Origin: an uncultured Spartobacteria bacterium
GTDB taxonomy: Bacteria > Verrucomicrobiota > Verrucomicrobiia > Chthoniobacterales > Chthoniobacteraceae
DNA length: 59,821 nucleotides
Reading direction: 5' to 3'
Assembly: GCA_903919125.1 (NCBI GenBank)
Contig: CAIXGS010000067.1
Coordinates: forward strand, 1-59,821
Shown: in pieces, positions 13,443 through 31,638 of the stretch
How the letters are laid out: every line of letters starts with the position of its first letter
How positions within the stretch are numbered: position 1 is the first letter of the stretch
Notes under the pieces: model-generated
Databases searched by the model: none
Told to the model about the DNA's origin: nothing
The model's input: the letters and a program-made list of their open reading frames with translations, nothing else
Program-made: the position numbers and the translations under genes

Positions 13443-15041
13443 CTAATGAGCGGGTCCGGGCCGTTGCTCCACCTTCGCGCGCTGACAGCACCAAATCGTG
13501 GCGCAACTCAGAACCAATACGGAGCCAAGAATCAAAAAGCAGTCGTCAAAAGCCATCACGTAGGCCTCGCGACGAATCGTTGCCTGCAAGGCGAATAACG
13601 CTCGATGCATCGCAGTGCTGGCATCGCTGCCTGTCTGCATGAAAGCGGCGCTCAGCTCGGCGAGCCGCATCTGGGTGGCGGGCGCGTATCCTTGAACGGC
13701 CTCCCCAAGTTGCGCACTGTGGAAACGTTCGCGCATACTCACCAACGTGCCCCCTAGGGCGATGCCGACCGAACCGCCTAAGTTTCGCATCATATTAAAA
13801 AGTGCGGAGGCATTGCCCGCTTGGGACATCTCGATTCCCGCAGTGGCAATTGAGGTGAGCGGCACCATAATAAGGGGCTGCCCGATGGCCCGCATGACTT
13901 GCGAAACAATGAGCTGATCGTGCCCAGTGTCGTGCGACATCCATCCGTTGAGAAGGGCGCTTCCCCCGAAGAAGGCCATCCCGATTGTCACCAAAACTCT
14001 GGGGTCGTAGCGTGGCATTAGGGCGCGGGCGACGAAGGGCATGAGCACGAGTTGGGGCCAGCCCATCCACATGATAGTTTCGCCGATCTGAGTGGAGTTG
14101 TAATGTTGTACCTGAGCGAGATACACCGGAAGAATGTACGACAATCCGTACAGCCCGACGCCTAACGCGATGTTGGTCAGTCCTGCGAACCCAAAGTTGC
14201 GTCTGCCGAACAGCCGCAGGTTGACTAGGGGCCGCGGATGCAGCCATTCAATAAGGACAAAACTTCCCAAACAGACAAACGCCACAATCGCAAGCTGCGC
14301 GATCATGTCGGACTCAAACCAATCGTTGCGGTTTCCTTCCTCGAGAAAAATGGTGAGTGCGGCTAGTCCCACAGCCATCGTGGAGATGCCGGCCCAATCT
14401 CCATTTCTTAAGCGCTTTAATTCCATGGGTTCATCATCGAGACCCCAGTAAATTGCTGCGCACAATAGAAGCCCGGGAAGTACGTTGAGATAAAAAATAG
14501 AAGGCCAGCCGAACGCCTCAGTCAGCCAGCCTCCGATGGTCGGTCCCACACTTGGGGCGAAGGTTGCGGTGATCCCAAAAAGAGCAAATCCAGTCGCTCT
14601 TTGAGATGGGGGAAGCGTGCGCAGGATAATAGTGAAGGCCATGGGGATCAGCACGCCACCCGCGAACCCCTGCAGCACGCGACAAAAAATCATCGAGCCG
14701 AGGCTGTTGGCGAAGCCGCATGCGACGCTTGCCACCAAAAAAAACACGGCATTCCCCATGACGTAACGGCGGGTTCCAAAGGCGCCGGCCATCCATGCGG
14801 TGAGGGGAATGACGATAATTTCCGCAACCAAATACGCTGTGGAAATCCACGCGCCCTCGTCCAGCGTCGCGGCGATGGAGCCCGTAATTTCCGCAAGCGA
14901 GGCGTTCGTAATTTGGATGTCCAGCACGGCCATGAACGCGCCCAACACCGCGCCAAACACCGCCACCCATTGGCGGAGCGTCACTTTTTCGCCCACTGCG
15001 CTTCCCGAATGAGCGCTGGGGTGAGGCACGCTCTTACTCAT
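13443..15041 (-). CDS. emrB: EmrB/QacA-type drug efflux permease (DHA2, 14 TM)
   Basis: The 532-residue membrane protein fits the DHA2 family of the major facilitator superfamily. Hallmarks are LDIQITNASLAEI in TM1, the cytoplasmic loop GAFGTRRYVMG (motif A), RVLQGFAGG in TM4 (motif B), and APSVGPTIGGW in TM5 (motif C, antiporter signature). It uses the proton gradient to expel lipophilic compounds, normally with an EmrA-type adaptor and an outer-membrane channel; no TolC-like gene is in the window. Its start overlaps the end of the emrA-like gene by 8 nt (15034-15041), indicating translational coupling. Confidence 0.92.
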   Translation of the reverse strand: MSKSVPHPSAHSGSAVGEKVTLRQWVAVFGAVLGAFMAVLDIQITNASLAEITGSIAATLDEGAWISTAYLVAEIIVIPLTAWMAGAFGTRRYVMGNAVFFLVASVACGFANSLGSMIFCRVLQGFAGGVLIPMAFTIILRTLPPSQRATGFALFGITATFAPSVGPTIGGWLTEAFGWPSIFYLNVLPGLLLCAAIYWGLDDEPMELKRLRNGDWAGISTMAVGLAALTIFLEEGNRNDWFESDMIAQLAIVAFVCLGSFVLIEWLHPRPLVNLRLFGRRNFGFAGLTNIALGVGLYGLSYILPVYLAQVQHYNSTQIGETIMWMGWPQLVLMPFVARALMPRYDPRVLVTIGMAFFGGSALLNGWMSHDTGHDQLIVSQVMRAIGQPLIMVPLTSIATAGIEMSQAGNASALFNMMRNLGGSVGIALGGTLVSMRERFHSAQLGEAVQGYAPATQMRLAELSAAFMQTGSDASTAMHRALFALQATIRREAYVMAFDDCFLILGSVLVLSCATIWCCQRAKVEQRPGPAH

Positions 15042-16059
15042 GCGCGCGGGTGGCGGAGAGGGCTCCCAGAACGTGGACGGGTTCCCTAACGTTCACGCTG
15101 ACAATCACGGAGAAACCCGGCAACAAACGGCCATTGAATTCACGAGCGTCTGCTTCATCAAAGTAAATTTTGACCGGCACGCGTTGCACCACTTTCGTAA
15201 AGTTGCCCGTCGCGTTGTCTGGCGGGAGCAGCGCGAAAGTGGCTCCACTGGCGGGGGAAACACTTTCGACGCTGGCTGGGAATATTCGGTCGGGGAAGGC
15301 GTCGATGCGAACTTCTACGCGCTGCCCGTGTTGCATTTTCGAGACCTGTGTCTCCTTGAAATTAGCAACGATCCACGAAAAGTCTTCGACCACGGCCATG
15401 AGCGGCTGTCCAGGAAAGACACGGTTACCGGTCTGAACGGCTTTGGCACCGATGTGCCCGTCGCTTGGCGCTTTTATCACGGTGTATGAAAGTTGGAGTT
15501 CCGCTTCGTGCAAGGCGGCGAGCGAGACGTCTTTTCCCGCTTCAGCCAGAGCGAGTGCGGCGGCTGCGGCGTCCTTTGCGGCGCGGGCGGTATCGATGTC
15601 GGCTATGGAAAAAACGCGGCTCTTAATCAGTTCGGAGGCGCGCTCGAAGTCGGCCTTGGCTTTACTGGAATTCGCCTGAGCCAGAGCGATTTGAGCATCA
15701 GCTTGAAGGAGCGTGGCGCGCGCGCGACTCAGTGCGGCTTGTTCATCGCCATCGTCCATCTTTATCAGGATTTGACCCGCTTTTACAGGCTGGTGGTCGA
15801 GAACCAAGACCTCTGAAATAGAGCCTGAAGTCCGAGACGAAATCTGATGGGCCGTCCCTACAATCGTGGCGTTGTCGGTTTTCTCCCAAGTGCGCGCCTG
15901 ATTCCACCAATGGTGTATCGCAAGCAACAAAACGGTTGCCACGACGGTGAGCAGGATCGCTTTGAGCGCGGGGAAACTTCGCGAATCACTCCCAATTTGA
16001 CCGCGATTTTGGGGGTTGAGCTGATCGGGAGGTTTGAGCGCAGCGGGCGGAGTGTCCAC
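15034..16059 (-). CDS. emrA: EmrA/HlyD-type membrane fusion protein
   Basis: The gene starts with GTG at 16059 and encodes 341 residues. One N-terminal transmembrane segment (about 33-48) is followed by a biotinyl-lipoyl-like half (SRTSGSISEVLVLDHQPVKAGQ). A long coiled-coil hairpin comes next (about 105-185, rich in Ala, Lys and Glu), then the second lipoyl half (APSDGHIGAKAVQTGNRV). The C-terminal beta-barrel ends with GRLLPGFSVIVSV. It bridges the EmrB permease to an outer-membrane channel. The preceding 90 bp carry a promoter-operator candidate (16088-16128). Confidence 0.92.
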   Translation of the reverse strand: MDTPPAALKPPDQLNPQNRGQIGSDSRSFPALKAILLTVVATVLLLAIHHWWNQARTWEKTDNATIVGTAHQISSRTSGSISEVLVLDHQPVKAGQILIKMDDGDEQAALSRARATLLQADAQIALAQANSSKAKADFERASELIKSRVFSIADIDTARAAKDAAAAALALAEAGKDVSLAALHEAELQLSYTVIKAPSDGHIGAKAVQTGNRVFPGQPLMAVVEDFSWIVANFKETQVSKMQHGQRVEVRIDAFPDRIFPASVESVSPASGATFALLPPDNATGNFTKVVQRVPVKIYFDEADAREFNGRLLPGFSVIVSVNVREPVHVLGALSATRAHE

Positions 16060-16087
16060 CGCTCAAGTATCTCATCAAAGCGGTTTG

Positions 16088-16128
16088 ATAACAAAGTTTC
16101 CTGTTAAAAATGCCAAAACTTTAACAGG
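16088..16128 (-). promoter_or_regulatory. Candidate promoter and operator for emrAB
   Basis: A perfect 9-bp inverted repeat, CCTGTTAAA (16100-16108) and TTTAACAGG (16120-16128), is separated by 11 bp. On the minus strand the spacer contains TTGGCA (16111-16116) as a possible -35. Seventeen bases later TGTTAT (16088-16093) could be the -10, about 29 bp before the GTG start. A dimeric repressor bound to the palindrome would cover the -35. No regulator gene is adjacent. The repeat is seen directly; the promoter assignment is inference. Confidence 0.5.
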
Positions 16129-16371
16129 AGTGCGACTTTCGCGAACTCGAATTGGCGCTGATTGTGATCGTTTGAGCTGTTCAGGCTAATACTAGATAAA
16201 TTATTAATTTGGAGGCTTCTAGATATAAAACTGTGCTTGGGTGGCGTTCTTCTCCCGCGCTCTGCGCACAGAGCGTCACATAAACGTATAACGGTAATGC
16301 TTCCTTTTGAGGGAAAAACGATTACTCAAAAGTCATAACTAAGATCCACGCACTTTTTTCTCCGTCTAATT

Positions 16372-17055
16372 ATGTTCAAAAACCTTTCCGTCCGAAGCCG
16401 CTTGGTACTTTGTTTTTCCATTCAAACAGTCCTGAGTTTGGCGGGTTTATTCTACGAGCATAGAATCACTGAGGCTCAGATGAATGCTCTCGGGAGGCTG
16501 AACCGTGATTTTCTCGAACATTCCGTAAACGTCCAAGGGGCGCTTTTTAGGATTCAGTCACTTCCCGCCGAACAGATTTTGGCTCTGCTGCAGGGATCTA
16601 TTGTCATGTATTCTGATCCTGAGGCACTTCCTTCGGCTTTCATTCGTCTGAAAGCCATCAGGGATGAGTTTACTGACGCGATAGAGGCTTTAAAATTTGC
16701 AATTCACTCAGCGAAGGTGACCGATGCTCTTGAGGCTACCTTGGATTATTCGCAGCGATTTAATGAAGCTTTGGATAAAGCGGCGCGTCTTTTGGAGAAA
16801 GGCGAGAAGCAGGAAGCGACCGATGTGTTGATGAATCGGGGCAGCCAACTACAGGCGTCTTTTGTGGCAAGCGTGGCGAATTTACAATCCGCTTGTGCTG
16901 GGGAACAATCCGAGAAAATGGAAGAGACGCAAATCCTTGATTCGAAACGTGTTTTAGTAGAGCGTCGATCGCTTTTTTGGATAGTGACAGGGATAGTAGG
17001 AGCCGGATTGGGCTTTATCTTTTTGATCAGGCACGCCGTTTGGGCCCGTGGTTAA
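16372..17055 (+). CDS. Orphan sensor-like membrane protein (four-helix-bundle MCP-like ligand domain)
   Basis: This 227-residue protein begins LSVRSRLVLCFSIQTVLSLA, a start typical of chemoreceptors and sensor kinases. TM1 is about residues 9-27 and TM2 about 200-222. The extracytoplasmic part between them is all helical, as in 4HB_MCP domains. The protein ends seven residues after TM2 with no HAMP, methyl-accepting or kinase domain. It is either a truncated receptor that ended in a natural stop or a stand-alone sensor that signals through partners. A gap of about 300 bp without features separates it from the SAM/FGE-like gene. Confidence 0.6.
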   Translation: MFKNLSVRSRLVLCFSIQTVLSLAGLFYEHRITEAQMNALGRLNRDFLEHSVNVQGALFRIQSLPAEQILALLQGSIVMYSDPEALPSAFIRLKAIRDEFTDAIEALKFAIHSAKVTDALEATLDYSQRFNEALDKAARLLEKGEKQEATDVLMNRGSQLQASFVASVANLQSACAGEQSEKMEETQILDSKRVLVERRSLFWIVTGIVGAGLGFIFLIRHAVWARG

Positions 17056-17352
17056 CCAGCGATTTTCTCGGTTGTTTGCCTTACCGATTTGCAATTGCGT
17101 TTGAGTGGGCGTAAGCAAGCGATGCCGCACGCTTATTTGCGCGAGTTGCAGAGAACGCCGTGGGTTGAGCGGGTAAGGGGTGGGTGGTGAAGTGTTTTGA
17201 TGGATGCGTGAGTCGCTCGAGGGCGTTTAAGCAAAGTAGATTCATGCATCGTGATGCGGGTGTGCGCTTGGATTCACCCAATTTTCACAAGAAAAGGACT
17301 CATTCGTCTTCATGGCCTGTTGAGATGAGTATCTCGGATAGAGATAAAGCGC

Positions 17353-18366
17353 ATGTCTACGCAACTTCTTGCGATTTTAACTGGGCTGGGATTGGCCGAC
17401 TTAATGCCACGTTTTTACGCAGAGGGCATCGATGACGATTTGCTGCGTGAACTTACTGACATAGATCTGCAACTCATCGGCGTCAGCCGGTTAGGGGATC
17501 GCAAGCGCCTCCTCAAGCAACTCGCAGGCGCCCAAACCTCAGCTGAACTTGCGCTGGCGGGTGCCATTGTTCCCGAGATCGGCGTCGAGGATGTGGGGGT
17601 TCACGATCCTCACGATGCCGCAGGTGAAACGCTCGAATTGAAACTGCCGGGCGGCGAGCCAATCAGGTTTTCGTTCTGCCCTCCAGGGATTTTTCATATG
17701 GGCAGTCCGAATGAAGAACCGAAGCGTTGCGAGGATGAAGTGCCAGTGCGTGTGCAATTTAAGACAGGCTTTTGGATCGCACAGACGCCGGTGACTCAAT
17801 CGCAGTTCGGAGCGGTGGTTCGAGAAAATCCCAGCCATTTTCGCGGAGAAACGCTTCCTGTGGACAGTGTTTCGTGGGGAGATTCGCAAAACTTCGTCAA
17901 CATGTTGAGTGATTCGGCTGAGATTCCCAAAGGGTTCCATCTAGAACTCCCGACCGAGGCGCAATGGGAGTACGCTTGCCGTGCTGGGACTCAATCGGTG
18001 TTCGGCTTTGGCGACAGCCTTACGAGCGTCGAGGCGAATTTTGACGGCAATCATCACTATCCCAGTAATTCAAAGAAAGGGCCCTATCTTGGGAAAACCA
18101 CGCCGGTGTGCAAATACCGACCGAATGCTTGGGGTATTTTTGATATGCACGGAAATGTCTGGGAGTGGTGCAAGGACTGGTATGGCGATACGCGGTTAGG
18201 TGGCGTGGATCCTCAGGGCCCGAGTTTCGGTGTCAATCGGGTTCGACGCGGTGGCGCATGGAATGGCGGCGCGGCCTTCTGTCGGGCTGCCTTCCGTTAC
18301 TATAGGAGCCCAGAATACCGCAGTAATCATTTCGGGTTTAGGGTCGCGCTGGTGGCACGGAAATGA
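17353..18366 (+). CDS. SAM-domain protein fused to a formylglycine-generating-enzyme-like (SUMF1) domain
   Basis: Residues 1-60 look like a sterile alpha motif: LTGLGLADLMPRFYAEGI, then LTDIDLQLIGVSRLGDRKRLL. This interaction domain is common in eukaryotes and sporadic in bacteria. Residues 95-337 form an FGE-sulfatase fold with MGSP near 116, TPVTQSQFG, LPTEAQWEYACRAGT, MHGNVWEW and RRGGAW. True FGE uses two cysteines five residues apart. Here Cys310 matches the second, but position 305 is Gly, so oxidation of sulfatases is unlikely. It could be a ligand-binding or protein-modifying relative. No signal peptide is seen, so it is probably cytoplasmic. ATG 17353 directly opens the SAM domain. 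Confidence 0.82.
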   Translation: MSTQLLAILTGLGLADLMPRFYAEGIDDDLLRELTDIDLQLIGVSRLGDRKRLLKQLAGAQTSAELALAGAIVPEIGVEDVGVHDPHDAAGETLELKLPGGEPIRFSFCPPGIFHMGSPNEEPKRCEDEVPVRVQFKTGFWIAQTPVTQSQFGAVVRENPSHFRGETLPVDSVSWGDSQNFVNMLSDSAEIPKGFHLELPTEAQWEYACRAGTQSVFGFGDSLTSVEANFDGNHHYPSNSKKGPYLGKTTPVCKYRPNAWGIFDMHGNVWEWCKDWYGDTRLGGVDPQGPSFGVNRVRRGGAWNGGAAFCRAAFRYYRSPEYRSNHFGFRVALVARK

Positions 18367-18410
18367 CTTTTGGCGCTTTGAAGCAGAGACCTAGAGGCAA
18401 AACGCTTGGA

Positions 18411-18577
18411 CTAAACGTGGTGGTTGCCGATTCGTTCCCAAAACTCATAGCCAACGCGGTCCTTGGCCCCGCCTTTGAAATATCCTATGCCGTCCATGCC
18501 GTTTTTCGGGAGGGTAAATTGACGATCTCCTCGCACAGCTCTCCGCCCACAAGCTGTACCTCGTACTCGCAGACGAA
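18411..18577 (-). pseudogene. Decayed gene fragment of unknown family
   Basis: Between the SAM/FGE-like gene and the DUF1501 gene, the minus strand holds a protein-like fragment split over two frames. One frame reads YEVQLVGGELCEEIV (about 18515-18577). After a shift, the other frame reads MDGIGYFKGGAKDRVGYEFW and ends at a TAG stop (18411-18413). Reading across the shift gives a continuous, plausible C-terminus. No start codon and no complete frame exist. The family was not recognised. The fragment is best explained as the tail of a gene lost by deletion and frameshift. Confidence 0.4.
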
Positions 18578-18645
18578 TCAGCGCCGAGCAACACGAGGCG
18601 CGGGAACGCTCCCCAATCGGAGCTCAAAATGGAAACTGCTGCGTT

Positions 18646-20094
18646 TCAGCTCAGCAGCTCGCTGACCACCCGCGCGCTTTGACCGTCGGTGAGGGTCAGG
18701 TTCGCGGCGTTGCGGATGAAGCCGAGTTTGGTGTGATCAAAGCCAAAGCAGTGCAGCAAGGTGGCATGCCAATCGTAGTGGTTGACCACATCCTTGACCG
18801 CCTCGTGGCCCCACTCATCAGTTTCTCCGTAAACCAGGCCGCCCTTGAACCCGCCGCCCGCAATCCACTGGCTGAAACCGTGCGTGTTGTGGTCGCGGCC
18901 CCATTTTGCGCGGCCGGCGTCGTTTTGAAGCACGGGGAGGCGTCCCATTTCCCCGCCCCAATGCACGATGGTGCTTTCCAGAAGACCACGCTGTTTGAGG
19001 TCGAGCACGAGCGCCGCACTGGGCCGGTCGGTTTCCGCGCACCGCTCCGGCAGCGCTTTGATGAGCCCTCCGTGATGGTCCCAGCTTTGTCCATTGTTGA
19101 GCACCTGCACGTAGCGGACCCCGCGTTCAATCAAGCGCCGTGCGACGAGGCAGCGGCGGCCGTAGTCGGCGGTGAGCGGGTTGTCGACTCCGTAGAGGCT
19201 GAGGACGTGTTTGGGTTCGCTCGAAATGTCGAGAGCCTCCTTGGCCGCCAACTGCATGCGCCCGGCCAGTTCGTAGCTCGCAATCCGTGCGCGCAAATCA
19301 TGTTCTCCGGGATGCTCTGCCGCGTGTTTCTCGTTGAGCGCGTGAAGGAGATCCATCTGCCGGATTTGGGGCGGGCCCGCGAGCGCGCCGGGGGGATCTA
19401 GGTTCAGAATGTAGGGCTCCTTGGCGCGCACTAAAGTTCCCTGGTAGGCAGAGGGCAGCCAGCCGTTGGTCCAGTGCTGTTGCTGGAAAGTGGGCAGCCC
19501 CGAGGGATGCGCAAGCACCACGTAGGCTGGAAGATCCCGCGTCTCGCTTCCAAGAGCGTACGCCACCCAGGCGCCTACCGTCGGCCGGCCCACGGTGCCT
19601 TTGCCCGTCTGCATCGCCAGCATTCCTTGCAGATGATTGCTGACGCCCGACTTCATCGAGCGGATCAGCGTGATGTCGTCCGCCACCTCCTGGAGTCCGG
19701 GTAAAAGTTCGCTCAGTTCCATGCCGCATTTGCCGGACCTGACGAAATTCCACGGGCTTCCGAACACCGTCGAAGAGGCCTCCGCGACGTTGTCGTATTT
19801 CACCTCGCCCGGAAATTTTTTGCCGTCGTATTGGGTCAACATCGGCTTGGGATCGAAGAGATCCATTTGCGAGGGACCGCCCATCATAAAGAGCGAGATC
19901 ATCGCCTTCGCCTTCCCGGCCGCCGGCGGGACTTTGGGTTTGAGGTCGAAGCTTTCACCGCCAAGCAGCGGTTTGATGGGCGCGGCCAGTAGCTGGTCGT
20001 CGCGCAGGAGCGAGGCAAGGGCGAGGCCGCCGAGCCCGAAACTGCCGGTGTGCAAAAAGTGGCGGCGCGAGCAGAGAGTGGAAGGGGAGTGCAT
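18646..20094 (-). CDS. DUF1501 protein (Tat-exported, sulfatase-like fold)
   Basis: The 482-residue protein starts with a twin-arginine signal, SRRHFLHTGSFGLGGLALA, placing it in the periplasm after folding. Family markers follow: FMMGGPSQMDLFDPKP, MELSELLPGLQEVADDI, VNHYDWHATLLHCFG and GGGFKGGLVYG near the end. DUF1501 proteins belong to the alkaline-phosphatase/sulfatase-like group and accompany PSD1 cytochromes in PVC bacteria; their reaction is unknown. Here the PSD1 gene lies upstream on the same strand. The usual tight spacing is broken by a 428-bp gap holding a foldback element. Confidence 0.92.
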   Translation of the reverse strand: MHSPSTLCSRRHFLHTGSFGLGGLALASLLRDDQLLAAPIKPLLGGESFDLKPKVPPAAGKAKAMISLFMMGGPSQMDLFDPKPMLTQYDGKKFPGEVKYDNVAEASSTVFGSPWNFVRSGKCGMELSELLPGLQEVADDITLIRSMKSGVSNHLQGMLAMQTGKGTVGRPTVGAWVAYALGSETRDLPAYVVLAHPSGLPTFQQQHWTNGWLPSAYQGTLVRAKEPYILNLDPPGALAGPPQIRQMDLLHALNEKHAAEHPGEHDLRARIASYELAGRMQLAAKEALDISSEPKHVLSLYGVDNPLTADYGRRCLVARRLIERGVRYVQVLNNGQSWDHHGGLIKALPERCAETDRPSAALVLDLKQRGLLESTIVHWGGEMGRLPVLQNDAGRAKWGRDHNTHGFSQWIAGGGFKGGLVYGETDEWGHEAVKDVVNHYDWHATLLHCFGFDHTKLGFIRNAANLTLTDGQSARVVSELLS

Positions 20095-23317: not shown

Positions 23318-23944
23318 TTACACCACGAAACTTGGGCGGTTGAACTTCTGTTTCAAGAATTGGCCGTTAGCCATTAGCGCTTGCGCGTCGCTTGCAGACA
23401 CGTTGGCGACGATTTCGCGCATTTTGGCCTCGAGCAATGTCAATTGTTCACCCATCAGTTGACGGGCTGTTTTACCCTCGCTCAAAGGGTGTGTAGTACG
23501 AAAAGCAGGTGGAAGTGCTGCGTAATTGGAAAGCGTCTCCGGCAGATAACTCAGCACCGTTTCGCGCACAAGAAATAGGTCTTCACCGCCAGGTGCTTGC
23601 CCAAGCAGTCTCGGAAGGACCTCGGCCACCGAGTCTCGAATGCTTTGTAAATTGGCGCGCATTTCTGGAGTAAGATGAGGCGCCGCACCAGTGGCGAGCT
23701 CGTCCAAGTGACGCAGCGTTTCTTCGACGCCAAGGCTGTTGGCGATTTCACGTTCCAGGTCAGGCGGACGGCGTCCCAAGAGCAAACCGAGTGCGTATAG
23801 TGCCAGCGTGATCAGAAGCCACCCGCGTGAAATCAGTCCTGCGAAAAGCAGCCCAGGGCCAATTAGCGCGAGCGTACAGCCGAGCAAATTTGCGGTGCTG
23901 TAAAAAAACAAAAGGGCGCGCGTCCGAAAAGCTAGCCGCAACAT
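23318..23944 (-). CDS. Small membrane protein of the TelA cluster (XpaC-like?)
   Basis: The 208-residue protein has two closely spaced hydrophobic segments (about 10-35 and 37-56) and a helical cytoplasmic part. The C-terminal half runs VLSYLPETLSNYAALP, then GKTARQLMGEQLTLLEAKM, ending FLKQKF. Size, topology and the 3-bp spacing after the SBP-vWA gene recall XpaC-type partners of TelA, but the match is not certain. It is the last gene of the cluster. It probably anchors or regulates a complex with TelA at the membrane; the function is unknown. Confidence 0.65.
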   Translation of the reverse strand: MLRLAFRTRALLFFYSTANLLGCTLALIGPGLLFAGLISRGWLLITLALYALGLLLGRRPPDLEREIANSLGVEETLRHLDELATGAAPHLTPEMRANLQSIRDSVAEVLPRLLGQAPGGEDLFLVRETVLSYLPETLSNYAALPPAFRTTHPLSEGKTARQLMGEQLTLLEAKMREIVANVSASDAQALMANGQFLKQKFNRPSFVV

Positions 23945-23947
23945 ACT

Positions 23948-25561
23948 TTACTGGTATCCCCGAATTTCCTTAAAAACCAGTGCCAGACGAGACTTGCGTC
24001 CATCGAACACGCGTCCACCGGCTAACTGCGCAAGCGCTTGCATCTCCGCAACGTTACCTTCTCCAAAAAGAATCGGAAAAATACGCGCTGCCGTGCCGCT
24101 TCGATGAGAATCTTTGAACTGGTCAAACGTGACGCCTTCGTTGTTTAAGCCATCGGTAAGCAGCACGATGCTGACGAGCCGTCCCGGATCTCGCTGGATT
24201 TCCTCTTTAGCAACGAGTTCAGCGGCCGTAAGTGCCGAGTAAATTGCGGTACCACCATCAGCAATCAGCCCATCGGCTTGCTTGCGCACCGCTTCCTGAA
24301 CGCTTTGGATATCACTCTCTTCAAATTGAAAGGAAACTGGTGCACCCACTTTGTTGGAAAACTGTATGAGTACGACCCGTTCCCGGGTTTGAAACGCTGC
24401 GTACCGCGAACTCGCAGTCGCAACGCCTGCGCCTGCAAGCACCTTCAATGCCTCGCGCATACCGTCCAACCGTGGTCCGCGCATGGAACCGCTGACATCC
24501 AAAACGAAGATCGAAGTCGCGGGTTTGCGCCACTGAGCTTGGAACGCGCCTAGAATCGCGTCGATTACCTCCAAACGATTGGGAAACGAGAGTTCGGCAA
24601 CCACCGCCGTTGGGAGAGTGGGCGCTGTGGCGGCTTCTGGGTTGGATGGGCGCAAATAGGCGGCGGCGAGCGGACCTCTCTGAAAAGGCGTCGCTTTCAG
24701 GCAAGCGACGATTCTCTTGAAAAGTTCCTGCTTCTGAGGGTTGAGCAACAACAGCGGGTAATCAGCGGAAATCATTCCGTCGCGTGGGTAGATCAGAGTC
24801 AACTGATCGGAGGACGGTAGCTTTTCATTTGCACGCAATAGCACGGCCTCGTAATTGATCAGCGCATCGACAGAGGAGGGATCGCGCAAAAACGCTTCTG
24901 CGAGCCACCCAGAACTGCCTGCCGTTAATTGTTGTCCTGAGAGGAAGGCCTTAAGTTTTTGGACATCGACATCCTGCACCGAGAGATCCTCGCTTTTGCC
25001 CGCCAACGCTGAGGCCACAGCGAAAAGAGCACTCATGCCGGTGTTGGAACTGGTTGGGTTCGTCATCCCGTAGCGCAGTCGCCCCGATCCTGCGGCTGCT
25101 GCAATATCGGCCCAAGTGGGTGCTGCTTTATCCCATCCAAGGGAAGCCGCCTTCGTGCGTTTTATCCCAAGTGCGATCCGCGAATAAAACAATTTTTCGC
25201 GCGCAATGGGTTTGGTTTGCAACGCAAGTGCCGGATACGCGCCATTCGGAGGCAAGATGGCATCAAAGCTTTCGCCCGCGTTGATTCGTTCGACGATGTC
25301 CAGTGTGCCTGCATAAGAAAATACAAGGTTGATCCCCACCGCGCGGGTCGCGTTTTGGATGGCTGGTTCAAGCTCCTTCAGTTCTGAGCCCGCAAGCACA
25401 CTGAAAGATTCCGCGCTGGACGGAATCGCCACCAAAGACGCTTCGTCCGACTGCTTACCGCAGCCAAAGATGGCCGAGCACAGAGTTGCCAGCGCAAGAA
25501 GCGGGAGAAGTTTCGCTTTAAGTCGGTGCAGAAGTCGGAGAACCAACTTGAAGCGGTTCAT
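23948..25561 (-). CDS. Lipoprotein with solute-binding domain fused to a von Willebrand A domain
   Basis: The protein has 537 residues. A basic N-terminus and hydrophobic stretch end at SAIFGC, a lipobox with Cys34. Residues 50-305 form a periplasmic solute-binding fold like molybdate/anion-binding proteins (SVLAGSELKELEPAI, FSYAGTLDIVERI, YGMTNPTSSNTGMSALF). Residues 345-537 form a vWA domain with an intact MIDAS: DVSGSM (Asp355), Thr438 in DGGTAIYSAL and Asp470 in LLTDGLNNEG. Metal binding is therefore expected. Its ATG overlaps the TelA stop as ATGA, so the two are translationally coupled. SBP-vWA proteins are known, mostly as uncharacterised neighbours of stress genes. No ABC permease is nearby, so it probably senses rather than imports. 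Confidence 0.85.
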   Translation of the reverse strand: MNRFKLVLRLLHRLKAKLLPLLALATLCSAIFGCGKQSDEASLVAIPSSAESFSVLAGSELKELEPAIQNATRAVGINLVFSYAGTLDIVERINAGESFDAILPPNGAYPALALQTKPIAREKLFYSRIALGIKRTKAASLGWDKAAPTWADIAAAAGSGRLRYGMTNPTSSNTGMSALFAVASALAGKSEDLSVQDVDVQKLKAFLSGQQLTAGSSGWLAEAFLRDPSSVDALINYEAVLLRANEKLPSSDQLTLIYPRDGMISADYPLLLLNPQKQELFKRIVACLKATPFQRGPLAAAYLRPSNPEAATAPTLPTAVVAELSFPNRLEVIDAILGAFQAQWRKPATSIFVLDVSGSMRGPRLDGMREALKVLAGAGVATASSRYAAFQTRERVVLIQFSNKVGAPVSFQFEESDIQSVQEAVRKQADGLIADGGTAIYSALTAAELVAKEEIQRDPGRLVSIVLLTDGLNNEGVTFDQFKDSHRSGTAARIFPILFGEGNVAEMQALAQLAGGRVFDGRKSRLALVFKEIRGYQ

Positions 25562-26784
25562 AACTTCACCTCACCCTTCTCCTCTAATGCGCCTAGCGAC
25601 TCCTCTTGGCGTACTCTGTCGAGGTACGTCTTGCTCTTGGCGACTTCCTCGGAAAGGACGTTGACGGTAGTCTGCATCGAAGTCAGCGCCTTGCTCTTGA
25701 AGTCGGCAATTGCGTCCATTGTCTGGTAAATGTTCTGAAACGCCTGCTGGAGTTTCGCGATCTCAATAGTCCCAGACGCTGCCTGTTGGTGAATAGCCGC
25801 GCTTTGATCACGTAACATTTCACTGGTGGCGGCGATCATATTCCCCGTCGTCGTATTCAACGCCGTGATTTGGTCGAGCACCAATTTCTGGTTACCCAAA
25901 GCCTGCGCCACTATCACCGCCGTGCGCAGCGCCGCCACAGTCGTCGTCGTTGCTCGATCCACGCCCTTCATCAGCTCAAGATTGTTTTTGCGAATCAAAT
26001 CCAGAGCCAGGTAGCCCTGCACGTTAACCGCAAGTTGCGTCAGTAAATCCGTCACCTTCTGGCGCGCGTAAAACAGAATTTCCTCCCGCACCACCCGCGC
26101 CTTTTCAGGATCGTGAACTTCAATCTCGCCCACTTTTTTAGCAAGCTGCGCATCCAGCGACTTACCGATGTGAACAAACTTTTCCAGCCGCTCCATCAAC
26201 CCCCATAGGTTCGTCTTCTCCAACTCAATATCCACATTGTCTCTCAACAACTCGTCCTTCCCTCGTTTCAACGATTCAATCACCGCGCTCAAATGCGTCT
26301 GCGAGGATTGGTAACGGTCAAAATAGTCTGTCAGCCGATTACCCATCGGAATTAACCCCAATAACTTCCGCGCGGAAAACAAATCTCCTTGCCGCGATGG
26401 ATCCAGCGCTTCCACTTGACGCCGCAAATCCACCAGCGATTGCCCAATCTTCGCTCCCTGCGAAAGCGCGCCCTCTTTGAGGCTGCCCACGGGACGTTCG
26501 AGCATTCGGTTCGAAACGGAAGCGGAAGCGACAATATCTTTGTTGCCCATGGAGTGAATGCGCTCCACCGCTTCTTTAAACTTAGGATGTTGCGAATCGT
26601 GCGCGGTCACCTCATCGATAAACTGCCGAACCTGTTCTTCCAACGAGACAAGGTCCTCAGGTTTCAAACGAACCTTGCCACTCGCGGATTCTGGGGGAAT
26701 CACTGGCACAGGCTGGGGCGGTTCCAGAGTAAACGTTTGAGGCGATTGAAGTTCAGGCGACTGAGTGGGTGTTGGGGATTCCAT
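25558..26784 (-). CDS. telA: TelA family protein (toxic anion resistance)
   Basis: The 408-residue protein lacks signal and membrane segments. It starts with a Pro/Gln-rich tail (1-35) and continues as a long helical bundle. Family hallmarks are LEKFVHIGKSLDAQL, DLLTQLAVNVQGYLALDLI, KNNLELMKGVDRATTTTV and LQQAFQNIYQTMDAI. TelA proteins are linked to tellurite and other anion stress and occur with Ter and XpaC proteins; the mechanism is unresolved. Here TelA is encoded between an anchored solute-binding-like protein and the SBP-vWA lipoprotein, which suggests a cytoplasmic partner of an envelope sensing complex. Confidence 0.93.
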   Translation of the reverse strand: MESPTPTQSPELQSPQTFTLEPPQPVPVIPPESASGKVRLKPEDLVSLEEQVRQFIDEVTAHDSQHPKFKEAVERIHSMGNKDIVASASVSNRMLERPVGSLKEGALSQGAKIGQSLVDLRRQVEALDPSRQGDLFSARKLLGLIPMGNRLTDYFDRYQSSQTHLSAVIESLKRGKDELLRDNVDIELEKTNLWGLMERLEKFVHIGKSLDAQLAKKVGEIEVHDPEKARVVREEILFYARQKVTDLLTQLAVNVQGYLALDLIRKNNLELMKGVDRATTTTVAALRTAVIVAQALGNQKLVLDQITALNTTTGNMIAATSEMLRDQSAAIHQQAASGTIEIAKLQQAFQNIYQTMDAIADFKSKALTSMQTTVNVLSEEVAKSKTYLDRVRQEESLGALEEKGEVKL

Positions 26785-26909
26785 GGGGAGTCTTGTGATG
26801 TTGCGGTTTTTTAATTGAGAGGTTATTAAATTTGCGCGATCTGAAAGTCAGTTTGCTTGAGCGCGTAACTTAGTGAACTTAGACGCAAGTCTTCTCGGAA
26901 TATGTTGCG

Positions 26910-28028
26910 TTACTTGAACTTTGCTTCAATCCCAATAATCATTTGTTCGAGCCACTCGTAACTGGGTGGGTCAATCACATCGACAAGAATTTCGGGCACG
27001 TGCACGCCTCGTTTCGCCCAAGTCTCAGGGCCCTTGAGGTCGCCTCCCGTGCGGAAACCGTATTCATGGGCGAGTTCCCGAAGCGCAGGATTGTTCTCCA
27101 ACGCATCACCCAAACGCGCGCCCGATGAGGTGAACGGCACGAGCACGTGCTTAGAGAAAACAGTGGGTTTTGGGTACATTAATACCATCTCGCCCTTGAG
27201 TCGCTCTGGATTTTTCAACCAAAACTCGACCAGTTGTGACTCGTAAACAACCAAAAGGGGCGCCTTTCCCATGCCGAGTGCTAGATAATCCTCAAAGGGA
27301 CCAGCGGAGGACTGCTCCTGAAAACCTTGCTTGAGGAAAAGTGGGGCAACCTTCGAGATTGCTCGCGTCGCCTCCTCTGCACTTTGCACGATTTGCTGCT
27401 GATTTGCGACGTAACTGGCCAGCGCGAGGTACATCGCTGCGGAATTGGATGTGCGCACATCTGTGGAATTCACCAGCACCGCTTTGTTCGTCGGAAAAGC
27501 CTCGCTGGAGGGTAGTTCTTTCCAGCGCACCCCCTTTTCGACTAAAGCCAGCAGAGCGGGAAGGTCGACCACGTAGTAAAAGTCACCCTCTTTCGTAGCG
27601 ATTTTGTTGGCTACGAGGATCTCGGCGATCGGGCGCCAACTGGCAAAAACAATGGGTGTGTAGAACGGTCGATAGACGTTCGAGGCCTTCGCTTGAGCTT
27701 GCAATTGGAATGCTGCGGGGGCGCCAGAGGGGAAGCCAAAATCGTACTTCTCTGGATCAAACCGCTTGGCGATTGCGCGGGAACCGGCTTTCTCAACGGT
27801 TACCGTAAGGCCCAGTCCAGCAAGAACTTTTTGAACGCGGACATCGGCAAAAAAGGCTTCTTTTTCCGAGCCGATCAAGCCCTTGAGGGTCGCCTGTTTT
27901 TGGCGCTCCGACAGCGCAAGTGCATCGGTTGCCCGTTCTAATTGAAGTTGCGAATGGGAATACCAGACACCCGATATGATGGCTCCCAGCAACGCCACAG
28001 CAATGAGAGGGGCTATGATTTTGCGCAT
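26910..28028 (-). CDS. Membrane-anchored solute-binding-like protein of the TelA cluster
   Basis: ATG 28028 is chosen because it opens directly on MRKIIAPLIAVALLGAI, an uncleaved anchor (residues 4-21); the frame extends to 28076. Residues 20-45 are a coiled coil (LQLERATDALALSERQ). The rest resembles a type II periplasmic binding fold: YDFGFPSGAPAAF, VLVNSTDVRTSNSAAMYLAL, LLVVYESQLVEFW and MYPKPTVFSKHVLVPF. The spacing of these blocks parallels the solute-binding half of the downstream vWA lipoprotein, so both may bind related ligands. It is the first gene of the cluster, 125 bp before TelA. The ligand is unknown. Confidence 0.75.
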   Translation of the reverse strand: MRKIIAPLIAVALLGAIISGVWYSHSQLQLERATDALALSERQKQATLKGLIGSEKEAFFADVRVQKVLAGLGLTVTVEKAGSRAIAKRFDPEKYDFGFPSGAPAAFQLQAQAKASNVYRPFYTPIVFASWRPIAEILVANKIATKEGDFYYVVDLPALLALVEKGVRWKELPSSEAFPTNKAVLVNSTDVRTSNSAAMYLALASYVANQQQIVQSAEEATRAISKVAPLFLKQGFQEQSSAGPFEDYLALGMGKAPLLVVYESQLVEFWLKNPERLKGEMVLMYPKPTVFSKHVLVPFTSSGARLGDALENNPALRELAHEYGFRTGGDLKGPETWAKRGVHVPEILVDVIDPPSYEWLEQMIIGIEAKFK

Positions 28029-28330: not shown

Positions 28331-28336
28331 GAAAGT

Positions 28337-28427
28337 GGCGGAAGGGGGGGGATTCGAACCCCCGGTCAGATTTCTCCAACGTTCGATTTCGAGTCGAGTG
28401 CTTTAAACCGGGCTCAGCCACCCTTCC
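28337..28427 (-). tRNA. tRNA-Ser (anticodon CGA)
   Basis: The 91-nt minus-strand gene has a 7-bp acceptor stem (28421-28427 with 28341-28347), discriminator G and encoded CCA (28337-28339). The T arm contains GGTTCGAATCC. The long variable arm (TTGGAGAAATCTGACC region) is that of a class II tRNA. The anticodon loop is CTCGAAA, so the anticodon is CGA, reading UCG. The pair at the outer end of the anticodon stem is a C-A mismatch. Confidence 0.93.
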
Positions 28428-30432: not shown

Positions 30433-31638
30433 CTACTTCTTGGACTTGGTGGAGGGTGCTTTTTTGGGAGCAGTTTTGGCGGGAGCCTTCGCAGCAGCTT
30501 TGGCGGGAGCCTTCACAGCGGCTTTGGCAGGAGCCTTCACAGCGGCTTTGGCAGGAGCCTTCACAGCGGCTTTGGCAGGAGCCTTCACAGCGGCTTTGGC
30601 AGGAGCCTTCACAGCGGCCTTCACAGCGGCTTTGGCGGGAGCCTTCACAGCGGCTTTGGCGGGAGCCTTCACAGCGGTTTTAGCAGCAGGTTTGGTGGTA
30701 GGTGCGTTTTTTTTATGTGGTTTCGCGCTCATGTGTAGGGTGTTGGGGGTGGTTTTGGTTTCAACAGTGAGTGTTTTCTTACCTTTCGTCTTGCTTGAAA
30801 AGAGTCGTTTCAGATTCGCCAGACCTTTCACGGCGATGTCGTCGCGTTTGGGTTCCATCTTGCGCCAGATTGCTGCAGCGGCGGCGATGACCTTCACGTC
30901 TTGAGTGAAGGATTCGATAACCACATCACCGTGGTAACCGATGTCTTGCAGAGCCTCTACGATCGGCCCCCAGTTGAGTGAGTCGTTGCCGGGGGTTCCC
31001 CGATCCGTGCCACAAGCGTGGAAGTGCGTCAGGCGTGCGCCAGCCCTGCGGATGGCATCAGCTTGATTCTTCTCTTCGATGTTCATGTGGAACGTGTCCA
31101 AGTGCAGATTCACATTCTTGGCCCCTACCGCTTTGACTAACTTCAGCCCCTGCTCGCAGGTGTTGAGGAAGTCGGTTTCAAAACGGTTCAAAGGTTCGAC
31201 CACTAATTCGACGCCGGCTTGCTGCGCGAGTTTGGCAAGTTCCTTGAGGTTTTTCACGACAGCCGCGAACTCGGTTTTTTGATCCGCAGGGGAGACCGGG
31301 CCTTTCTTTCCGACTACGGAATACAACGGACCAATAATTTTTGGGCAGCCCATTTCAGCCGCCTGTTTGATAAGCGCGGCGATGTAATTGAAGCCTTCTT
31401 TTTGTTCTGCAGCGGAGCCACGCAAATCGCGTCCGGGGCCCATACAGGCGCAAATGGAGCCGATGGCTATGCCTGCCTTTGCTGCTGCCGCTTTGAGCGC
31501 AGCGGGGTCGATGTGCTCGGGCGCTTCCACTGGAATCTCGACGGTATCGAAGCCCCAAGATTTAAATTTTTTGAACAACTGGACGCTTTCCGTTTTGAAG
31601 GGGGAGACGAAGAGGAAAGAGTTAATTCCGAAACGCAT
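30433..31638 (-). CDS. Sugar 3-epimerase-like TIM barrel with a Lys/Ala/Pro-rich H1-like tail
   Basis: ATG 31638 opens on MRFGINSFLFVSPF; upstream codons to 31743 do not fit. Residues 1-285 are a D-tagatose/D-psicose 3-epimerase-type barrel with a complete metal site: Glu148 in VVEPLNRFETDF, Asp181 in LHLDTFHMN, His207 in THFHACG and Glu242 in VVIESF. Residues 303-401 are a basic tail of KAPAKAAV repeats ending KKAPSTKSKK, like histone H1 or bacterial Hc1/AlgP tails. The tail has its own Met303 (MSAKPHKK), so a separate short product by internal initiation is possible. The gene pairs with DUF1080 downstream. Confidence 0.85.
   Translation of the reverse strand: MRFGINSFLFVSPFKTESVQLFKKFKSWGFDTVEIPVEAPEHIDPAALKAAAAKAGIAIGSICACMGPGRDLRGSAAEQKEGFNYIAALIKQAAEMGCPKIIGPLYSVVGKKGPVSPADQKTEFAAVVKNLKELAKLAQQAGVELVVEPLNRFETDFLNTCEQGLKLVKAVGAKNVNLHLDTFHMNIEEKNQADAIRRAGARLTHFHACGTDRGTPGNDSLNWGPIVEALQDIGYHGDVVIESFTQDVKVIAAAAAIWRKMEPKRDDIAVKGLANLKRLFSSKTKGKKTLTVETKTTPNTLHMSAKPHKKNAPTTKPAAKTAVKAPAKAAVKAPAKAAVKAAVKAPAKAAVKAPAKAAVKAPAKAAVKAPAKAAVKAPAKAAAKAPAKTAPKKAPSTKSKK
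30478..30678. repeat. 24-bp coding minisatellite
   Basis: About eight near-identical 24-bp units lie in tandem, encoding KAPAKAAV on the minus strand, with one unit shortened to KAAV. Adjacent units are identical or differ by one or two bases, so the array is young or homogenised. It encodes the basic tail of the epimerase-like protein. Copy number is likely variable between strains. Confidence 0.85.

Follow-up and report, generated by a model that had tools for sequence, protein, structure and literature searches.

A minus-strand operon of four genes in the order S-T-V-M was identified at positions 23318-28028 (ORF coordinates) of the window, i.e., the whole stretch of 59,821 nucleotides from an uncultured Spartobacteria bacterium analysed here. 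It is a real, widespread and laterally transferred operon that has apparently been uncharacterised so far. It is best read as a new form of the known TelA-XpaC modules, in which that core is joined to two anchored binding domains. TelA and XpaC have long been linked to tellurite, nisin, and cell-envelope stress, with the mechanism missing. A fixed operon that, in several phyla, unites TelA with a relative of XpaC and with two binding domains anchored in the membrane, mostly in genomes with no other TelA and no TerD, offers a small system whose input (i.e., the ligand) and coupling become directly testable. It also shows binding-protein folds in use outside transport, here as a pair linked with a vWA domain. 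The literature searched contained no description of this gene set or its function; a 2012 comparative study of Ter/TelA (Mol Biosyst) lay outside that literature, and an earlier mention is thus possible.

Gene layout and domain architecture

The first gene, S (26910-28028, minus strand), encodes a membrane-anchored, solute-binding-protein-like product of 372 aa with one N-terminal transmembrane (TM) helix and no lipobox; its PBP type-II domain begins near residue 45. After a gap of 125 bp follows T (25558-26784, minus), encoding a TelA protein (PF05816) of 408 aa that is predicted to be cytoplasmic. The third gene, V (23948-25561, minus), encodes a predicted lipoprotein of 537 aa composed of a ModA-like solute-binding-protein (SBP) domain and a C-terminal vWA domain, and the last, M (23318-23944, minus), encodes a small membrane protein of 208 aa. 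The stop codon of T and the start codon of V share an ATGA overlap (25558-25561, minus), and V and M are separated by 3 bp. The initial annotation had described four leftward genes with these coordinates and junctions, and its observation that no transporter lies nearby was confirmed and extended: neither a permease nor an ATPase is encoded inside the cluster, so that the two genes expected of an ABC importer alongside a binding protein are lacking, and none recurs beside the cluster in other genomes.

T matched the TelA family with 295.6 bits (cut-off 30; E 5.6e-88), in agreement with its earlier identification as TelA. Its profile reached the XpaC-linked TelA proteins just at E 1e-7 to 1e-14, indicating that T belongs to a distant TelA subfamily. 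For V, Pfam matches to SBP_bac_11 (2.5e-13) and VWA (2.8e-11) were obtained, and the MIDAS residues D355, S357, S359, T438, and D470, which make up the DxSxS, T, D pattern, were invariant in 44 of 44 aligned V proteins, so the description of V as an SBP-vWA protein with an intact MIDAS holds; the vWA domain is predicted to be metal-dependent (MIDAS). The candidate lipobox Cys34 was at least 90% conserved in the same alignment of 44 proteins. Moreover, the C-terminal residues IRGYQ (window 23951-23965) are kept right to the stop codon. Of 81 V proteins, 80 end in the form IR[GAT]YQ, which suggests a functional tail.

S had no Pfam or NCBIfam family match of its own. In its AlphaFold model (pLDDT 91.7, pTM 0.83), a single long helix at the N-terminus precedes a PBP type-II domain, and superposition on 1sbp (Z 23.2; 275 residues at 3.4 A) provided the confident structural match that assigns this predicted fold. 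The model also returned 698 Foldseek matches at E <=0.001, the best structural matches being sulfate-, thiamin-, and ferric-binding proteins, with a sulfate-binding protein nearest. In addition, S is homologous to the SBP domain of V (hhalign 96.7%, E 4e-10), and the pocket motifs GSE, G[ST], SN, and YE are common to both proteins and invariant or nearly so across phyla. Structure prediction thus upholds the earlier view of S as an anchored solute-binding-like protein. For the SBP profile of V, ModA chains were the nearest matches, although weak ones (E 0.02-0.1); S59 aligned with ModA S12 and T86 with ModA S39, the two serines that bind the oxyanion in ModA. The binding domains of S and V may accept an oxyanion- or phosphate-type ligand, and the nearest structures together with the conserved pocket residues lend modest support to the oxyanion idea raised in the initial annotation.

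M likewise matched no Pfam or NCBIfam family and did not reach the gathering score of XpaC (PF10112), a family without any match in the window's own genome. Its model (pLDDT 90.9) comprises a TM hairpin (two TM helices) and a helical domain, for which Foldseek and VIA-align searches gave no informative solved relative; weak matches to influenza HA2, lying over the hydrophobic hairpin and a helix, were rejected as compositional chance. Profile comparison of M with XpaC by hhalign gave 81-82%, compared with <=1.5% for reversed, shuffled, or unrelated controls, and the two top-ranking hits of the XpaC HMM in a set of 7,409 ORFs were M proteins (E 1.5e-4 and 1.9e-4). Furthermore, XpaC itself is encoded next to TelA in 12 of 18 loci from Pseudomonadota. 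On the combined grounds of profile, TM hairpin, helical domain, and telA linkage, M is therefore a divergent XpaC homologue, with the caveat that the soluble parts alone gave only 5.5% in hhalign. It follows that the core of S-T-V-M corresponds to the known TelA-XpaC pair.

Conservation across bacteria

A genome scan with V as a single protein found no relative, whereas an alignment-based, profile-guided scan of species genomes recovered at least 583, of which the best 80 loci were retained, a sample that consequently leans to close relatives. Profile searches over the ORFs of these loci revealed the order S-T-V-M in 71 of the 80 (best 80 of at least 583), with hosts in Pseudomonadota, Actinomycetota, Deinococcota, and Acidobacteriota. 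The plain pattern accounted for 67 of the 71, and the other four (L041, L079, L086, and L089) depart from it only in that V is split, a further S is present, or ORFs were called too long. Among the nine non-conforming loci, six are cut by contig ends (L014, L033, L037, L053, L063, and L070) and three are without T (L052, L060, and L061); in these three and in L006, S and V are present without an intervening TelA. Protein searches of a plasmid collection uncovered the complete set of four in records from Sphaerotilus, Nonomuraea, and Variovorax, and three of the genes (S, V, and M) in a Deinococcus record. The recurrence of this order in 71 of 80 loci and in three plasmid-collection records argues that the arrangement is not due to chance. 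Neither of the two outcomes that the initial annotation had named as speaking against its reading was observed: the four genes are neighbours in related loci, and the SBP-like folds were upheld.

The junctions are conserved as well, with the 4-bp ATGA overlap between T and V in 43 of 71 loci measured and an overlap between V and M in 50 of 77. Pairwise protein identities correlated at 0.79-0.94 over 69 sets, a figure that includes shared descent; the values were highest for S-V (0.94), S-M (0.94), and V-M (0.93) and lowest for T against the others (0.79-0.82). Since TelA co-varies least and four loci lack it, T may be exchangeable in the module. No fifth partner recurs widely among the locus neighbours, and no ABC permease does so either, BPD_transp_1 being found in just 2 of 126 sampled neighbouring proteins. 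In seven loci, M is followed at a distance of 60-269 bp by a VapC-like PIN-domain gene (L013, L023, L024, L028, L036, L037, and L038).

With regard to the Ter system, neither TerD nor TerC was detected in the four-gene cluster or among the recurrent neighbour families listed, and membership in a Ter cluster is thus not indicated. The initial annotation had named XpaC as a known associate of TelA; here M itself proves XpaC-like. A single TelA in 20 of 22 genomes and no TerD in 19 of 22 indicate that the module operates independently of Ter. The window's own genome (G000) is one of the three TerD exceptions, with six TerD matches on contig C38 (20952-42692); its single TelA sits in S-T-V-M and the TerD genes on another contig, which makes the latter a Ter cluster without a linked TelA.

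Origin in this genome

Gene-neighbourhood conservation across Verrucomicrobia, for which the initial annotation had suggested a check, was not borne out. TelA exceeded the cut-off in 1 of 288 sampled genomes of the phylum, namely this one, and was absent from the 146 other relatives searched, including all 11 congeners. In the concatenated tree, the window copy nests inside a Burkholderiales group, with identities to the nearest copies of 73-76% for S and 76-78% for T. Given its lack in congeners and its nesting among Burkholderiales copies, S-T-V-M was acquired laterally here and is a unit conserved in other phyla. Contamination or a chimeric assembly is unlikely, as the flanking genes have congeneric orthologues at 89-94% identity and the GC content of the cluster (0.53-0.55) fits the window (0.549) and not the Burkholderiales copies examined (0.64-0.71). 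A tRNA-Ser(cga) gene (28336-28427, minus), located some 307 bp upstream of S with its 3' end towards the cluster, is a plausible entry site; no duplicate of the tRNA end was found as an att repeat within the window, and no exact empty site was found in congeners, where the flanks are split between contigs.

In two other Verrucomicrobia, a V-S pair was detected (L099, 7366-10889; L100, 7161-11236) in which a nearby coiled-coil membrane protein, 68% identical between the two, replaces TelA and M; this arrangement is possibly a sister system. Elsewhere in the window, a xylose-isomerase-like TIM-barrel protein (PF01261; 30433-31743, minus) carries a C-terminal tail of Ala/Lys/Pro repeats (AAVKAPAK) encoded by 12-bp-based repeats (30439-30726), which can be likened to a histone H1 tail.

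Proposed working and alternative explanations

The best reading, which we regard as an even prospect, is that the laterally transferred S-T-V-M genes specify a self-contained envelope module founded on TelA-XpaC, whose paired receptor domains would be coupled via helices in the membrane to TelA beneath it when the envelope is under stress. According to the predicted topology, S (TM-anchored) and V (lipid-anchored) would each present a type-II binding domain with a conserved pocket outside the cytoplasm, and the vWA MIDAS domain of V would likely serve to dock a partner, for instance S. In response to a ligand or to stress, the putative S-V assembly could then change, and the TM helix of S and the TM hairpin of M might relay this change to the cytoplasmic helical domain of M and to TelA, which would protect the envelope at the inner membrane face. 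Signalling across the membrane to TelA, as the initial annotation had proposed, is a plausible hypothesis. In a narrower form, the binding domains would work as a pair, one of them carrying a fused, metal-dependent vWA domain, to sense an extracytoplasmic ligand and control TelA via an XpaC-like membrane adaptor with no transporter; this is put forward tentatively, and, if true, it would define a transporter-free receptor class and give TelA its first defined input. Several points stand against the envelope-module reading. PBP folds can be repurposed as enzymes or scaffolds, four loci are without T, TelA is the least co-varying member, the Verrucomicrobial V-S pairs occur without T and M, and M falls under the XpaC threshold.

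An unlikely alternative is that the binding domains of S and V are scaffolds within a structural brace tying envelope components to a layer of TelA beneath the membrane, in which the metal site of the vWA domain would serve assembly and no signalling would take place. vWA domains are mainly protein-protein docking modules, the near-universal IR[GAT]YQ end of V (80 of 81) is what would be expected of a docking element, and the genes come without an accompanying regulator or transporter. However, the pocket-type motifs of both SBP domains are invariant or nearly so across phyla, a degree of constraint for which scaffolding alone gives no obvious reason.

It is improbable that the module provides defence against phages or bacteriocins at the membrane. 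Such a role would accord with the patchy distribution and lateral transfer of the operon, with the proposal that TelA and the TerF vWA protein build sub-membrane structures barring the entry of phages or xenobiotics (PMC7824862), and with one copy of the operon, on a Variovorax plasmid (L005), that has a Wadjet-type gene set (13544-19497) about 2.4 kb downstream of its M gene. However, the four proteins had no PADLOC match, none was found in viral contigs, and no defence family recurs, each PADLOC family listed having matched 1 of 126 neighbour proteins; the neighbour search therefore gave no support for a defence island. That S and V, whose folds resemble sulfate- and molybdate-binding proteins, are orphan binding proteins feeding an ABC permease encoded elsewhere, with TelA and M as bystanders, is very hard to reconcile with a four-gene order and overlaps kept across phyla, with the rarity of BPD_transp_1 (2 of 126 neighbouring proteins), and with the TM anchor of S and the vWA domain of V.

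Comparison with known systems

The architecture of V is already known to NCBI as the "substrate-binding and VWA domain-containing protein", a name that the Variovorax copy carries; it is an architecture label, and the literature searched gave no description of a function or operon for it. Ter systems (TerD, TerC, TerF-vWA, and TelA) resemble S-T-V-M in placing TelA alongside a vWA protein at the membrane, whereas the vWA domain of S-T-V-M sits in a predicted exported lipoprotein, TerD is absent in 19 of 22 genomes, and TelA is single in 20 of 22. ModA and the sulfate-binding periplasmic proteins of ABC systems share the PBP type-II fold and the conserved Ser/Thr pocket positions, but S and V are without a permease or ATPase, anchored, and paired, one copy being fused to a vWA domain.

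The closest likeness is to the TelA-XpaC pair, i.e., xpaC-yaaN in B. subtilis and lmo1966-lmo1967 in Listeria, where a TelA-family protein and a small helical protein with a TM hairpin are encoded together and linked to envelope stress (PMC3498285, PMC12791056). Both xpaC-yaaN and yceH belong to the sigma-W regulon of B. subtilis (PMC3498285), and a Listeria telA mutant showed raised sensitivity to nisin and tellurite, as cited in PMC12791056. In contrast to this pair, T represents a distant TelA subfamily, M lies under the XpaC Pfam threshold, and S-T-V-M adds two anchored PBP-fold proteins, one of them with a vWA domain.
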